From: Candidatus Hydrogenedentota bacterium
Lineage (GTDB): Bacteria > Hydrogenedentota > Hydrogenedentia > Hydrogenedentales > SLHB01
DNA: 32,746 bases
Reading direction: 5' to 3'
NCBI GenBank assembly: GCA_012719295.1
Contig: JAAYAQ010000029.1
Location: 1-32,746, forward strand
Shown here piece by piece: positions 6,128 through 29,374 of the stretch. The notes below the pieces were generated by a model. It made no database searches. It worked only from the letters and a program-made list of their open reading frames with translations, and was not told the DNA's origin. The position numbers and the translations under genes are program-made. The number at the start of each line of letters is the position of its first letter. The stretch's first letter is position 1.

Positions 6128-7573
6128 TCAGTCCTTGCCCCGCACGCGCAGGTCGACCTGAGGCGCCTGGCGTTCGATCTCCTGCTCGTAGGCCTTTTCG
6201 ACCATGGTCTTGTAGAGGGATTCGCGCTGGCTCTCGGCTTCCTTTTCGGCCAGGTTCGCCGTGTCGACGCTGCTGCCGGCGCCGCTGAGCGCGGAGGCGC
6301 TCTCCTGCAGGCCGGTGCGCAATTCGCGCAGGCGCGAGGTAACGTTGTTGATGCCGGCCTGGGCGGCCCGTTTCTCGACGACGAATTCGTCCGTCACGCC
6401 GCGGTACAGATCGAGGGCCTGGCGCAATTGCACGATGGCCTCCGCGTACCGTTTGGTCGAGGCCTGCACCTCGGCGTTCTCTTCCAGCTCGCGCGCCTTG
6501 GTGATGGCGTCGCGGGCCTGGGCCAGGCGCGCGTCGCGCTCCCGGATCAGCTTCTCGGCGGTCAGGCGTTTCGACTCGGCAAACGGATGCAGGGGATCGA
6601 CCTCGAGGGCGCGCGCGTAGTAATCCCGCGCCGTTTCGAGCCGGTCCTTCTCCAGTTCCTCGTCGGCCAGGTCGATGTAGTAGTCCGCAATCCGCCGGAC
6701 GACGTCTTTACGTTCCGGTTCCTTCTTGAGCACCGCCAGGTACTCTTCGACGGCGCGCTCCCGCATGCCGGCCTCGTACATCATGTCGCCGATTTCTTTC
6801 AAGACATCGCCGGTGTATACATCCAGCGCTTCGAGACGCGTGTGCGCGGCGTTGATCTCGCCCACACTGGCGCGGTCGACGTAGAAGGCCATGGCGCGGA
6901 GGACATAATTGCGTTTCTGCTCCTGCGACACCCCCGCGGAGACGCCGCGGCGCTGGAGCACGGTGTACCAGATGTCGCCCACCGCGTTGATCGAACGGCT
7001 GATGTCCTGTCCGTAGGTGGTTCTGGCCACGCCGTCAAACCCCAGTCCCGACTTGTAGTCGTTGGTGAGCATGGCCTGGCGTTCATCGAGTTCACGGGAA
7101 AGCCGGGTGAAATACTCCGTGCTGTCGACCATCTGGCGCGCCTGGAGCGTCAGGCCGGTCTCGGAGATGCGCTGGTCGATATCGTCGTAATACATCGTGC
7201 GGTACACGGGGTCGGCGGTCTGCATGGGGGCGGTCACGCTGGCGGCGACTTTTCCCAGCGCGCCCATCCGGAACGCGAAATAGGGATCCACGCCCGATTC
7301 GCGCACGGCCTGCAGCAGCTGCATCTCGGTGAGGATGGAGCGGACGGGTTGCATGTCCGCGTTGGGCATCAGCAGGGCCAGTTCCGCCGAGGAGAGTGCG
7401 GCGCCCTGGCGGATTTCCTTCTCCATTTTCGACAGCGGCACGACGCCTTCCTTGCTCAACATGCGCCCGGCTGTAGTAACAATGGCGATCTGCGATTGCG
7501 GTCCCCACGCGCCCGCGGGCACACAGATCCAGAGCAGCCCCAGCACCGCCAAACCTACCGCACTTTTCCGCAT
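6128..7573 (-). CDS. Exported TPR/coiled-coil protein with a degenerate S1/P1-nuclease (phospholipase C)-like N-terminal domain
   Basis: 481 residues. ATG 7573 is chosen because GGAAGG lies 5 bases upstream; a GTG two codons earlier would overlap that site. Residues 1-22 form a signal peptide ending A-G-A, so the mature chain would begin W23-G24. Zinc-dependent phospholipase C and P1 nuclease also begin with Trp, whose amino group binds zinc. The next ligand (His in W-G-x-x-G-H) is Gln28 here, and I-N-A-V-G-D-I-W-Y-T-V-L (195-206) resembles the family's H-x-x-G-D-x-H-x-P-L-H with Asp200 kept but the histidines lost; there is no His at all before residue 244. Residues ~265-335 look like TPRs (A-R-D-Y-Y-A-R-A-L-E-V-D-P) and ~335-470 are helical and charged. 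I infer a non-catalytic periplasmic scaffold. It is the last gene of a three-gene unit, 18 bases after the TPR gene. Confidence 0.6.
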   Translation of the reverse strand: MRKSAVGLAVLGLLWICVPAGAWGPQSQIAIVTTAGRMLSKEGVVPLSKMEKEIRQGAALSSAELALLMPNADMQPVRSILTEMQLLQAVRESGVDPYFAFRMGALGKVAASVTAPMQTADPVYRTMYYDDIDQRISETGLTLQARQMVDSTEYFTRLSRELDERQAMLTNDYKSGLGFDGVARTTYGQDISRSINAVGDIWYTVLQRRGVSAGVSQEQKRNYVLRAMAFYVDRASVGEINAAHTRLEALDVYTGDVLKEIGDMMYEAGMRERAVEEYLAVLKKEPERKDVVRRIADYYIDLADEELEKDRLETARDYYARALEVDPLHPFAESKRLTAEKLIRERDARLAQARDAITKARELEENAEVQASTKRYAEAIVQLRQALDLYRGVTDEFVVEKRAAQAGINNVTSRLRELRTGLQESASALSGAGSSVDTANLAEKEAESQRESLYKTMVEKAYEQEIERQAPQVDLRVRGKD

Positions 7574-7591
7574 CGGCACCTTCCTCGCGGT

Positions 7592-9175
7592 TTACGCGGC
7601 GCCGCCCGTCGCGTCCAGCGATTCCTTGAGTTGCGCCACGAGCGTCCGCACTTCCTCAGCATGAGCATCCTCGGTTGCCGGATCTATGAGTTCCAGATAG
7701 CGTTCCAGCATTCGGACGGCTTCCGTCGGTTCGCCGCGCTCGAGGTAAAACAGCCCGAATTCCAGGTGCGCGGGGGCATACGCCGAATCGGTCTGGAGCG
7801 CCTTGCGGAAAGCGTCCCGCGCGGCCACCGCTTCGCCGGAACGCGCATACGCGCGCCCCTGCAGGGTATACAGCGCCGCGTCCGAGCCGCCCAGCTGGAT
7901 GGCCTGTTGCAGGCTCTGGGTGGCCCGTGCGGGATCGTCCATGGCCAGGTGCACGCGGGCGGCTTCGACCGCGGCCTCCGCCGCTAGCGGTCCCGACGTT
8001 TTCAGCAGGGGTTCCAGTTGCTGCAGCGCCGCCTCATGGAGCCCTTGTTCCCGCTGGCACACCGCGAGGAACAGGCGCGCCCGGAGGTTGTTCTCGTCGA
8101 GGGCGAGCGCGCGTTCAAGATACCCCCGGGCCTCGTCGAACTCCCTGCGGGAAATCAGCAGGATGGCGAGCTGGGTCAGGGCGTCGCCCTCCAGTGCCGT
8201 GCCGCTGTCGACGGCGGATTTCAGATATTCCGTAGCGCCGATCCAGTCGTTTTCCTCAGACGCCAGAAGACCGGCCGTTGCGAGCACATCGCCGTCGCTG
8301 GGCGCTTCTTCCAGCACCTTTTGAATGGCCTGGTGGGCCGATTCGGTATGTCCCTGCGCGGCGATGCCCACCGCGGTGAGCCGTCTGGCCGCGAGCCCCG
8401 GGGCGCCGGCGCCGACGGCCGCTTCACGCAACGCCGCGACCTGCCCCTCCGCATTGCCCTCCACCCCGCGAAGCAGTCCCAGCAGGTACCAGGCTTCCGA
8501 ATCGGCGGGGAATTGCTGGACCATCGTTTCGAGCGCGGCCTGAGCGCGGCGGCGGCCTTCTTCGCCGCCGGCTTTGGCCCAGCTCAGGGCCAGGCCCCGA
8601 TGGGCCTCGCGATTCGCGGGGGCCAGACGCACCACGCTGGCCAGTTGTTCGGCCGCGTAGGCGTATTCTCGGTTCTCCCAGTACATCCAGGCCAGCGCCT
8701 GACGCGCTTCCACCGAGTCCGGAACGGATTGGATGTAGTCATTCAGGGCGCTCACGGCCTGGGCCGCATTGCCCTTGTTGTATTCCTCAATCGCCGCGCC
8801 GATGCGGTCGCGCCGCAAAAAGAGCGCCAGCAAGAACAGCAGAATGACGACCACCAGAAACCCCAGCGTAGCGATGCCAATCCATTTCAGGCTGACCGAC
8901 GGCATGGTGAACGACCGTTTTTTGGCCTTCGCCGGCGCGGGCTGTTCCTCGGTGATTCGCTGTCCGGTGAGGAGGTTCGTGCCGCATGCGACGCAGATGA
9001 TGTCGCCCGCCTGCACCAGCGCGCCGCAGGTTGGACAGGTCTCCTTTTCCCCGCTGCTGCGCCGCTGCCCCGGCGCCGCCTTCTTGCGCAGGAATCCCCC
9101 GCAATGCACGCAATTGTCCAGCCGGGGATCCGTCAGCTTGCCGCAGTACGGGCAATTCATCATCGACGATGCCAC
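7592..9175 (-). CDS. Membrane-anchored double zinc-ribbon and TPR protein
   Basis: 527 residues starting at a GTG with GAGGAG 8 bases upstream; the ATG codons a few residues in lack that spacing. The N-terminus carries two C4 zinc ribbons: Cys8/11/22/25 and Cys47/50/61/64. A basic linker is followed by a single membrane helix (about 97-120), then a long run of TPR units to the C-terminus (for example A-L-A-W-M-Y-W-E-N-R-E-Y-A-Y-A-A at ~160, and A-Y-A-P-A-H-L-E-F-G-L-F-Y-L-E-R-G near the end). The zinc ribbons should be cytoplasmic and the TPR superhelix outside, although the topology is inferred. Such proteins act as protein-interaction scaffolds; the partner is unknown. The exported TPR protein downstream and the small zinc-ribbon protein upstream make a likely three-part membrane assembly. 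Confidence 0.8.
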   Translation of the reverse strand: MASSMMNCPYCGKLTDPRLDNCVHCGGFLRKKAAPGQRRSSGEKETCPTCGALVQAGDIICVACGTNLLTGQRITEEQPAPAKAKKRSFTMPSVSLKWIGIATLGFLVVVILLFLLALFLRRDRIGAAIEEYNKGNAAQAVSALNDYIQSVPDSVEARQALAWMYWENREYAYAAEQLASVVRLAPANREAHRGLALSWAKAGGEEGRRRAQAALETMVQQFPADSEAWYLLGLLRGVEGNAEGQVAALREAAVGAGAPGLAARRLTAVGIAAQGHTESAHQAIQKVLEEAPSDGDVLATAGLLASEENDWIGATEYLKSAVDSGTALEGDALTQLAILLISRREFDEARGYLERALALDENNLRARLFLAVCQREQGLHEAALQQLEPLLKTSGPLAAEAAVEAARVHLAMDDPARATQSLQQAIQLGGSDAALYTLQGRAYARSGEAVAARDAFRKALQTDSAYAPAHLEFGLFYLERGEPTEAVRMLERYLELIDPATEDAHAEEVRTLVAQLKESLDATGGAA

Positions 9176-9226
9176 GTTAACTTCTCCTCGTACCCGCCGG
9201 CCTGCCGGCGCGCGGGACGCCGCGCG

Positions 9227-9397
9227 TCACGCAGTGTCGTGCGGTAACGGCGTCTCACAGGATCTACAGTTCCGGGCTTCTATAAAATTCCGCGTGCCAC
9301 AGCGAAGGCACTTTCTGAAAAACAGGGGCGGCACACTCACCAGCGTGCAGACGGCAATCACCGCCAGCATAATCGCCACATACGCGCCGGCAGACAT
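9227..9397 (-). CDS. Small membrane zinc-ribbon protein
   Basis: 56 residues from ATG 9397, preceded by AAGGAGG with an 11-base spacing; an upstream in-frame ATG (9427) would place this site inside the coding region. Residues 5-27 are a membrane helix; residues 30-47 are a C4 zinc ribbon (Cys30, Cys33, Cys44, Cys47) of the same C-x2-C type as in the next gene. It lies 51 bases upstream of the zinc-ribbon/TPR gene and only about 65 bases from a near-consensus promoter, so it seems to be the first gene of that operon. The function is not known. The reading is supported by its Cys pattern, ribosome binding site and context rather than by a known family. Confidence 0.65.
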   Translation of the reverse strand: MSAGAYVAIMLAVIAVCTLVSVPPLFFRKCLRCGTRNFIEARNCRSCETPLPHDTA

Positions 9398-9468
9398 CGG
9401 TCCGGAAACCTCCTTGCGGCGCTGCACCCGCCCTGTCAGACAACAGTGCTCCCTGTTGCATCATGCCC

Positions 9469-9497
9469 ATTCTAGACCCCGGGTTATCTCTTGTCAA
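9469..9497 (-). promoter_or_regulatory. Near-consensus sigma-70 promoter of the zinc-ribbon/TPR operon
   Basis: Minus strand: TTGACA (9492-9497), 17-base spacer, TAGAAT (9469-9474). This is the best promoter match in the window. The leader to the ATG at 9397 is about 65 bases and contains a 6-bp hairpin (CAACAG, 6 bases, CTGTTG; 9441-9458) of unknown role. Confidence 0.72.
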
Positions 9498-26975: not shown

Positions 26976-28178
26976 CTACACCGTTTGTACGCCGTGCACG
27001 AAGGCGGCCCGGATGACGGGCTTCCACTGGGGATGGGACTGGTCGAGATCGAAAACGATCAGGTTGGCGACGGCGCCGGGTTTCAGCGTGCCGAAATCGG
27101 CCTTGACGCCCAGTATCTCCGCCGGAATCATGGACGCGCACCGGAACGATTGTTCGAGCGTCATGTCGGTTTCACGCGTGGCGTTGAGGACGCCCTGCAA
27201 CAGCATCAGGGCGCTGCCGGAGAGGAGATTGGTGCCGCACAGGTTGATGCGTCCCGACGGCAGCAATTCGACCATCATTCCCTTGACGCCGCTGTGGTGC
27301 GGATACATGCCCGGTTTCAAACCGGCGATTCGGACGGCGTCCGAGGTGAGAATGACGTTGTCGGACCCTTTCATGCGGACCATGGTCTTCAGCATGTCGG
27401 GTGGAACGTGGTGGAGGTCGGCGATGATCGCCGCGGCGAGCCGGTCCTCGGCCAGCTGGGGCCAGAGGGGGTTGCTGTGGCGGTCCAGTTCGGCGGCAAG
27501 GCCGTTTCCGAGGTGGGTGCAGAGGCGCGCGCCGGCGTCCACCGCCTCGGCGATCTGGTCCTCGGAGGCATGGTGGTGCCCGAGCGCCACGGTCACGCCG
27601 CGCTTCACCAGACCCTCGATAAACGCCATGCCCCGTGGAAGTTCGGGCGCGACGGTCGTGTAGAGCACGTGGCCGCCGCTGGCTCGGTTGAGCTTGTCGA
27701 AATCGCGCAGGCTGGGTTCACGGACATAGCGTTTGGCGTGCGCGCCCCGGGGCCCGTCCAGCGGGGACAGAAACGGCCCTTCGAGATGGAGGCCCGGCAC
27801 GGCGCGCGCCACTTCCGGGTCTTCCAGAGCCGCCGCGATGACCCGGCAGGCGTGTTCCATATTGGCAAACGTGTTCGTGGTGATGGTGGGCACCCATTTC
27901 GAGACGCCCCACGTGGCGAGGAACCGGGTGAGTTCGAGCACATCGCCGGGTTTGGCTTTCGGCCCCTGGAGATTGATGCCGTTGCCGCCGTTGACCTGAA
28001 TGTCGAAAAGCGTCGGGCCGATGATGGAGGAGCGGGTACCGTAATCGGGACGGCCAAAGCCCCCGCCTTGCGTGATGGCCTCGATTATTCCGTCGCGGAT
28101 GGTGATGTGAACCGGCCGCCCTGACCCAACCGGGATTCCGCATACCGTGACGGCTCCATTGGCGCCTGGGATGTCCAC
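26976..28178 (-). CDS. N-acetylglucosamine-6-phosphate deacetylase-like amidohydrolase (copy 1)
   Basis: 400 residues from a GTG at 28178 (GAGGG 7 bases upstream), 14 bases after the stop of copy 2. NagA removes the acetyl group from GlcNAc-6-phosphate in the cytoplasm. The metal site follows the NagA pattern: Glu133 in H-L-E-G-P, His201 in L-G-H-H-H-A, His222 in T-H-L-G-N-G, Asp280 in L-T-S-D-A. Compared with E. coli the last block reads T-H-L-G-N-G-L where T-H-L-Y-N-A-M is usual. F-D-I-Q-V-N-G-G-N-G (58-67) and the D-G-P-R-G-A-H block match copy 2. No kinase, NagB or phosphotransferase system adjoins, so the true substrate may differ from GlcNAc-6-P. Confidence 0.82.
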   Translation of the reverse strand: MDIPGANGAVTVCGIPVGSGRPVHITIRDGIIEAITQGGGFGRPDYGTRSSIIGPTLFDIQVNGGNGINLQGPKAKPGDVLELTRFLATWGVSKWVPTITTNTFANMEHACRVIAAALEDPEVARAVPGLHLEGPFLSPLDGPRGAHAKRYVREPSLRDFDKLNRASGGHVLYTTVAPELPRGMAFIEGLVKRGVTVALGHHHASEDQIAEAVDAGARLCTHLGNGLAAELDRHSNPLWPQLAEDRLAAAIIADLHHVPPDMLKTMVRMKGSDNVILTSDAVRIAGLKPGMYPHHSGVKGMMVELLPSGRINLCGTNLLSGSALMLLQGVLNATRETDMTLEQSFRCASMIPAEILGVKADFGTLKPGAVANLIVFDLDQSHPQWKPVIRAAFVHGVQTV

Positions 28179-28192
28179 GCTAGTGCCCTCGT

Positions 28193-29374
28193 TTATGCCC
28201 GCTGCTCACCGTCGATAAACACCGCCTTGAGGTTCGTCTTCCACTTTTCATGCGACTTTGTGATGGTGAATGCCACGAAATTGGCTTTCGTTCCCGGTTT
28301 GGGAAGCCGGAACGGGTGTTTGAGCCCGAAAAGCCGCGCCGGTATGGATGACGCGCACGCCAAGGCCTGCCGCAGGGTTAAGTCGGTGACGCGCATGGCG
28401 TTGACCACGCCCTGCAACAGCATCAGGGAACTGCCGCCCAGGTATTCCGTTCCGCTCAGGCAGATCCGGCCCGACGGCTTCAGTTCCACTGGGATCCCGC
28501 CCAGATCATAGGCCCCCGGCTTCAATCCGGCCAGATGCACGCAGTCCGAGACCAGAATCACCCGCTGCGGCTGCTTTGCCCGCACAAATGCCCGCAGCAC
28601 ATGCGGCGGCAGGTGTTCGAGGTCGGCAATGAGCGACGCCAGGAGGTGATCGTTCGCCAGTTGTGGCCAGAGCGGATTGTGGTGGCGGTCCATGGTGCCG
28701 ACCAGACCGTTGCCCAGATGCGTGGTCAGGACGGCCCCCGCCTCCACGGCGCGCTCAATCTCGAGGGGCGACGCATTGTGATGGCCAAGGGCGACGCGCA
28801 CCTTGCGCCGGCTCACTTCGCGAATAAAACCAAGGGCGCCCTCAACTTCCGGGGCCACGGTGATGTACGCGATCTGACCGTCCGCGGCTTTCATGAATTC
28901 CTCGAATTCCTCGAGCGACGGCGGCCGGACCTGCTGCCTGTCGTGCGCGCCGCGCGGACCGTCGTCGGGCGAGATGTAGGGGCCCTCGAGGTGAATGCCG
29001 GGAATGGCCTGCCGGACGCGCGGATCCTGCAGGGCGGCCGCAATCACGGCGCAACCGTGAAGCATGTGCCCGGCCGGCCCGGTAATGAGCGTGGGAATCC
29101 AGTGCGAGACGCCCTGGGACGCGAGAAAATCGTTGAGTGCGCACACATCATCGGGCGTGACGGAATCGCCCTGCAAATCGATGCCGTTCGCGCCGTTGAC
29201 CTGAATATCGAATAACGTCGGGGCGATGATGCAGGTGCTCGAGCCGATCTCCGGCGTGGCGCGGCCCGCCGGCTTGATTTCTTCGATTTGTCCGTCTTTC
29301 ACGAGGATGTCGGACGGTTCATCCGCGCCCGCGAGTATACCCCGTACCAAAATGCGATGTTTTCTGGAAGCCAC
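28193..29374 (-). CDS. N-acetylglucosamine-6-phosphate deacetylase-like amidohydrolase (copy 2)
   Basis: 393 residues, GTG start at 29374 with AAGGAG 8 bases upstream. Same fold and residues as copy 1: Glu130, His198, His219, Asp277 (spacing near E. coli 131, 195, 216, 273), with the same T-H-L-G-N-G-L. It matches copy 1 closely in blocks (D-I-Q-V-N-G, G-P-R-G-A-H, D-R-H-x-N-P-L-W-P-Q-L-A), so the pair arose by tandem duplication. It is the upstream gene of the pair and has its own promoter. Confidence 0.82.
   Translation of the reverse strand: MASRKHRILVRGILAGADEPSDILVKDGQIEEIKPAGRATPEIGSSTCIIAPTLFDIQVNGANGIDLQGDSVTPDDVCALNDFLASQGVSHWIPTLITGPAGHMLHGCAVIAAALQDPRVRQAIPGIHLEGPYISPDDGPRGAHDRQQVRPPSLEEFEEFMKAADGQIAYITVAPEVEGALGFIREVSRRKVRVALGHHNASPLEIERAVEAGAVLTTHLGNGLVGTMDRHHNPLWPQLANDHLLASLIADLEHLPPHVLRAFVRAKQPQRVILVSDCVHLAGLKPGAYDLGGIPVELKPSGRICLSGTEYLGGSSLMLLQGVVNAMRVTDLTLRQALACASSIPARLFGLKHPFRLPKPGTKANFVAFTITKSHEKWKTNLKAVFIDGEQRA

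Follow-up and report, generated by a model that had tools for sequence, protein, structure and literature searches.

In LapB/YciM, a membrane anchor, an array of tetratricopeptide repeats (TPRs) and a zinc ribbon are joined in a single protein: an N-terminal transmembrane (TM) segment is followed by the TPRs and these by a C-terminal ribbon, and the last two parts are cytoplasmic. TcaA-like proteins carry an N-terminal ribbon, one TM segment and an extracytoplasmic domain and are without a TPR array, and PilW/PilF, PrsT and MamA have TPR arrays for envelope or organelle assembly and are without zinc ribbons. Zinc-dependent phospholipases C (PLCs) and S1/P1 nucleases (PF00882, PF02265) are exported and have a Trp at the mature N-terminus. 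Here we describe a three-gene cassette in a 32,746-nucleotide stretch of DNA from a Candidatus Hydrogenedentota bacterium (contig JAAYAQ010000029.1; hereafter the window) that shares features with each of these proteins in another arrangement. Sequence comparison indicates an operon that Hydrogenedentota have retained by vertical descent across the phylum. A preliminary description of the window had reported three genes in one direction with gaps of 51 and 18 bases behind a near-consensus promoter, and the open reading frames and promoter were found as follows.

9227-9397, minus strand: gene 1, a 56-aa single-TM protein with a C-terminal four-Cys zinc ribbon.
7592-9175, minus strand: gene 2 (GTG start), a 527-aa double zinc ribbon, TM and TPR protein.
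6128-7579, minus strand: gene 3 (GTG start), a 483-aa predicted exported protein with a pseudo-PLC/P1-fold domain and TPR helices.
9469-9497, minus strand: sigma-70-like promoter TTGACA-17-TAGAAT, matching the consensus at 11/12 positions, its boxes kept in congeners.
9408-9415, minus strand: Shine-Dalgarno sequence AAGGAGGT, 10 bases upstream of the gene 1 ATG, read from the sequence.

The gap between genes 1 and 2 is indeed 51 bases, and that between genes 2 and 3 is 12 bases, or the 18 reported earlier if gene 3 is counted from its alternative start, an ATG at 7573. The promoter is the sole match of at least 11/12 in the window on either strand; when 200-bp sequences of like composition were shuffled, such a match turned up in ∼0–0.02% of cases. 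Its hexamers, their spacing and the Shine-Dalgarno sequence are identical in two congeners, one of them only ∼70% identical to the window at the protein level, and the neighbouring bases drift. Relative to a 95%-identical congener, dN/dS was 0.20 for gene 1 and 0.11 for each of genes 2 and 3. All three are thus under purifying selection and are therefore real genes. Together, the open reading frames, the rare and conserved promoter and the low dN/dS confirm the earlier observation of the cassette.

To follow the cassette through the phylum, we used 60 Hydrogenedentota genomes (one order, 11 families) for synteny and a wider sample of 68 genomes of the phylum and 318 outside it. Genes 2 and 3 are both present in 57 of the 60 genomes, and in 56 of these 57 they are direct neighbours with their order unchanged, the lone exception being split between contig ends; gene 1 lies directly upstream of gene 2 in 45/60. 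Conserved synteny in relatives, the check proposed in the preliminary description, was therefore passed. Genes 2 and 3 overlap by 4 bases in 6 of the 21 loci examined and are otherwise separated by short gaps, and the overlaps suggest translational coupling of the two genes. In 67 of the 68 phylum genomes, profile searches detected at least one of gene 3 and its paralog. The trio was not found in the 318 outside genomes, a search that scored only a handful of first-look candidates in each genome and so does not prove absence. The best outside matches to gene 2 (in G091, G238 and G376; E 1e-36 to 1e-38) were rejected as orthologues, being ribbon-less TPR proteins, and conserved opposite-strand open reading frames proved to be shadow frames of genes 2 and 3 and not separate genes. 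Beside the trio, the other flanks vary freely across families and no gene recurs except an upstream one, M184; the trio is therefore the unit. The three genomes without genes 2 and 3 (G003, G028 and G036) lack both together. In G036, which is 91% complete and belongs to the same genus as locus L056, the whole flanking block is missing along with them, and a deletion there is therefore indistinguishable from an assembly gap.

Gene 3 had been described as an exported TPR protein with a dead-enzyme-like N-terminus reminiscent of a degenerate nuclease. It divides into the following parts.

7511-7579, minus strand: predicted signal peptide, read from the sequence and the alignment, ending in an A-x-A-like site.
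6935-7510, minus strand: N-domain, residues 24-215, with a PLC/P1-nuclease fold and lost zinc ligands.
6284-6925, minus strand: TPR-like helical region, residues 219-432 (Pfam TPR_2, E 1.6e-7; helices in the model).

The signal peptide, as read from the sequence, and the TPR region agree with an exported TPR protein. The A-x-A-like site stands immediately before the invariant W25, which would place a Trp at the predicted mature N-terminus. In Foldseek, the full-length protein was swamped by generic TPRs, and the isolated N-domain was used instead, its model reaching a predicted local distance difference test score (pLDDT) of 89 and a predicted template-modelling score (pTM) of 0.89. The best 17 PDB matches were all zinc-dependent PLCs (probability 0.75–1.00), with S1/P1 nucleases next. 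Template-modelling scores (TMq) against the PLC structures were 0.53–0.69 over ∼190 residues, and E-values were weak (0.006–1). Despite these E-values, the consistent family of matches, the template-modelling scores and the kept Trp make the assignment of the modelled domain to the zinc-dependent PLC/P1-nuclease fold solid, nearer to PLC than to nuclease. The model, the Foldseek matches and the ligand loss described below bear out the dead-enzyme-like fold, whereas the nuclease label gives way to PLC, P1/S1 coming second.

Two groups of homologues, a paralog within the phylum and forms fused to an SLT domain outside it, were aligned with gene 3. No PF00882 or PF02265 match stood among the families listed for the 21 gene 3 orthologues, the SLT forms or the paralog, no PF00882 match occurred anywhere in the window's genome, and a hidden Markov model search with the N-domain profile against PDB sequences gave no match. 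The positions of the zinc ligands, in PC-PLC/P1 numbering, were taken from sequence, by a conserved Pro motif and by alignment, and not from residue-by-residue superposed coordinates. Besides the Trp, four ligands were mapped (H6/H14, H118, D122 and H128), and this set is not retained in gene 3: among the 21 orthologues, H6 is replaced by Q or R and H118 mostly by K, and positions 122 and 128 are variable. Trp1 (W25) is kept in 29/29 sequences from the three groups, across which Y100, R104, G106 and Y175 are also fixed, and D98, Y130 and D133 are invariant in the 21 gene 3 orthologues. The newly invariant Y100, R104, G106 and Y175 suggest that a non-catalytic surface or core has been preserved, and the alignment as a whole has the pattern of a fold retained for non-catalytic use. 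Any function of the N-domain would be that of a binding module. Gene 3 is therefore like the zinc-dependent PLCs and S1/P1 nucleases in fold, predicted export and N-terminal Trp, and unlike them in having lost the ligands save Trp1, in giving no Pfam match and in being fused to TPR helices.

The homologues suggest how this state arose. In family f35, outside the phylum (L099–L101), an N-domain homologous to that of gene 3 (profile E 1e-26 to 1e-31), with the common start W-G-x-x-x-[HQ], is fused to an SLT lytic transglycosylase (PF01464, E 1e-28). In contrast to gene 3, this enzyme takes the place of the TPRs, H30 and D114 are kept, and no ribbon-TPR partner was found. The paralog is longer than gene 3 (540–640 aa) and occurs in nearly every Hydrogenedentota genome, the window's genome having its copy at L045:4742-6484 (G000:C441). 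In a tree the three groups are distinct, with full support for gene 3 and for the SLT forms and 78/71 for the paralog. The first zinc-ligand His is kept as His in the SLT forms and is Gln or Arg in the paralog and gene 3; the Asp122 position is Asp in the SLT forms and the paralog and variable in gene 3; and His118 and His128 are absent in all three groups. On this alignment, the zinc site appears to have been lost by degrees across SLT form, paralog and gene 3.

The homologues also differ in setting. At L099:9221-19901 (G091), the SLT fusion is followed in the same direction by genes for an ABC sugar transporter, SpoIID, NamZ, a GH3 hydrolase and AnmK, which, from established knowledge of these families, we take to be a peptidoglycan turnover and recycling cluster. 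The paralog lies after a pseudopilin-like gene (N_methyl) in the window's genus and, in several genera, in families f10 and f11, downstream of an acyltransferase/alpha-beta-hydrolase fusion, with AsmA/YhdP-like genes slightly further upstream at some loci. This fusion upstream of the paralog is an unusual lipid-remodelling architecture; examples that join a phospholipid-type acyltransferase to an S33-like hydrolase are found at L089:6333-8582, L090:6884-9112, L092:6285-8540 and L095:10733-13048. By analogy, the contexts of the SLT fusion and the paralog point in general terms to envelope, wall or lipid.

The other two genes encode the proteins predicted to sit in the membrane, and both are as the preliminary description had them, a double zinc-ribbon TM-TPR protein and a 56-residue membrane zinc-ribbon protein.

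9101-9154, minus strand: first zinc ribbon of gene 2 (C8, C11, C22, C25; Pfam DZR/Zn_ribbon_3), Cys at least 90% conserved.
8984-9037, minus strand: second zinc ribbon of gene 2 (C47, C50, C61, C64), followed by a conserved CGTNLLTG motif.
8819-8875, minus strand: TM segment of gene 2, residues 101-119 (hydropathy 3.1), orientation ambiguous by charge.
7631-8803, minus strand: TPR array of gene 2, approximately residues 125-515 (Pfam TPR_19/16/14, E to 5e-24).
9323-9379, minus strand: TM segment of gene 1, residues 7-25, from hydropathy; P23 invariant.
9257-9310, minus strand: zinc ribbon of gene 1 (C30, C33, C44, C47), with weak Pfam zinc-ribbon matches below cut-off.

The gene 2 ribbons score above the Pfam cut-offs (PF13248, 38.8 bits against 27; PF12773, 29.8 against 27.3), and the four Cys of the second ribbon and the LLTG residues are invariant in 21 orthologues. 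Likewise, all four ribbon Cys of gene 1 are invariant in 19 orthologues. As Lys and Arg occur in gene 1 almost only on the ribbon side of the TM segment, the charge rule supports an N-out/C-in topology with a cytoplasmic ribbon. The earlier placement of the zinc ribbons inside is thus supported for gene 1, whereas gene 2 is ambiguous by charge. Its ribbons are probably also cytoplasmic, because a signal-less, ribbon-bearing N-terminal tail of 90 residues is unlikely to be exported; given the ambiguous charge, we infer that the TPRs lie outside.

Gene 2 departs from each of the most similar described proteins. Unlike LapB/YciM, it has two ribbons before the TM segment and its TPRs after it, no C-terminal ribbon follows the TPRs, and its NCBIfam match to that family covers TPRs only and is far below cut-off. 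It shares the N-terminal ribbon, single TM segment and putative extracytoplasmic domain of TcaA, which residues 45-116 match with E 5e-6, at 25.5 bits against an NCBIfam equivalog cut-off of 550. With PilW/PilF, PrsT and MamA it has the TPR array in common, scoring far below the equivalog cut-offs (66/154 bits for PilW, 115/312 for PrsT and 84/200 for MamA).

M184, the recurrent neighbour, is a three-TM protein of 160–200 aa with an NSSMxAL motif, 23 invariant columns in 8 sequences and no credible Pfam family. By position it stands upstream of the trio in ∼22 genomes from six families (f3 and f7–f11), and it is probably a fourth member of the system. Its presence in 56/68 phylum genomes and 0/318 outside suggests that it is apparently restricted to Hydrogenedentota. 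Loci with this arrangement are L051–L063. In genus g37 (L058 and L063), no gene 1 was detected and gene 2 is immediately preceded by M184; loss of gene 1 is therefore possible. In f1, the window's family, genes close to M184 resemble, by eye, greA/carB and DapA, and no functional link is clear. As a whole, the earlier interpretation held up in co-occurrence, promoter and dead-enzyme-like fold, and is corrected in that the fold is closest to PLC and a fourth protein probably belongs to the system.

Overall, we favour, with a probability of roughly 45%, a model where the cassette encodes a Hydrogenedentota-specific scaffold for envelope upkeep that is anchored in the inner membrane, its ribbons facing the cytoplasm, its TPRs in the periplasm and a secreted pseudo-PLC domain serving as its binding head. 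Such a scaffold would be non-enzymatic, span the inner membrane and reach into the periplasm. The membrane part would consist of gene 1, with one TM segment and a cytoplasmic ribbon, and gene 2, with its double ribbon inside, one TM segment and its long TPR array outside; M184, with three TM segments, would probably be a further membrane partner, and the exported gene 3 product would add the pseudo-PLC/P1 domain as a binding module and a second TPR array. Its job would most likely be peptidoglycan turnover or phospholipid handling: the pseudo-PLC domain would hold a wall or lipid ligand or dock an enzyme, and the TPRs would collect partners. Of this model, the genes with their promoter, conservation and synteny, and the fold and ligand loss of gene 3, are established; the assembly of the proteins, the orientation of gene 2, the ligand and the function are inferred. 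A bolder version, that M184 and genes 1–3 make up a phylum-defining four-protein envelope machine in which the dead PLC fold, a relative of the one joined to a lytic transglycosylase, is the periplasmic ligand-binding head of a ribbon-TM-TPR scaffold coupling the cytoplasmic state to wall or lipid turnover, is doubtful.

Several points count against the scaffold. Support for it comes from genome comparison and structure prediction, and the envelope function is drawn from homologues in other contexts, of which the paralog has neighbours that vary between families and the SLT fusion sits on a long branch of the tree, a long-branch warning. The limits of the zinc-ligand mapping weigh in the same direction. 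Gene 1 was undetected in about a quarter of genomes and is therefore not indispensable, the topology of gene 2 is ambiguous (mean Lys/Arg 3.0 before and 2.9 after the TM segment in 21 orthologues), and M184 is unlinked to the trio in f1, the window's own copy lying at G000:C500:5238-5642 (L079).

Some of these findings could be read otherwise. Genes 1 and 2 might form a membrane-anchored TPR chaperone with gene 3 as its soluble periplasmic partner, its cytoplasmic ribbons docking a ribosome, translocon or ATPase and its periplasmic TPRs gathering exported substrates, in the service of a secretion or pilus machine and not of wall or lipid upkeep. That PrsT, MamA, PilW and LapB, all below cut-off, are the best named-family likenesses of gene 2 would fit this, as would the pseudopilin-like gene before the paralog in the window's genus. 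However, the TPR matches are generic, no secretion or pilus gene recurs beside the trio, and we know of no place for a pseudo-PLC domain in such machines, which makes the chaperone conceivable, if rather unlikely. That the evidence is solely genomic, that some genomes without gene 1 keep genes 2 and 3, and that the gap between genes 1 and 2 reaches 290 bp among the loci examined would equally suit three envelope proteins with a common promoter and history that form no single assembly. This we consider unlikely, as the genes stay together in one order across 11 families with all other flanks changing, and the 4-base overlaps suggest that genes 2 and 3 are coupled in translation.

The residues of gene 3 could also be taken to mean an enzyme with altered chemistry, acting on a wall or lipid substrate through Trp1 and the conserved D98, R104, Y130 and D133. 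An invariant W25 right after the A-x-A-like cleavage site is what the PLC/P1 metal site has, and D98, Y130 and D133 do not vary among the orthologues; yet the four mapped ligand positions are either unfit for metal or freely variable, and neither a PLC nor a nuclease match was found in Pfam, so that we regard such an enzyme as very improbable. An anti-phage defence system was rejected, as PADLOC gave no match and the cassette is near-universal in the phylum and not patchy.

Elsewhere in the window, at 26976-29374, two tandem genes resemble, by eye, paralogous NagA-type amidohydrolases.

In the literature searched, we found no description of this gene set or of a dead PLC/P1 fold. All parts of the scaffold are known folds and its kind is an envelope TPR scaffold; because its function is unproven, we do not rate it as a categorically new system. 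That literature contained neither the combination nor its presence in almost all members of one phylum, nor a dead PLC fold as a TPR partner. The pseudo-PLC/P1 domain offers a concrete case of a metalloenzyme fold that loses its zinc site stepwise while the fold and new residues stay fixed, and it connects this fold with genes for peptidoglycan and lipid. Even in an uncultured phylum, the trio is open to direct testing, and M184 adds a fourth marker. Being inherited vertically and retained almost throughout the phylum, these genes likely matter for the cell biology of Hydrogenedentota.

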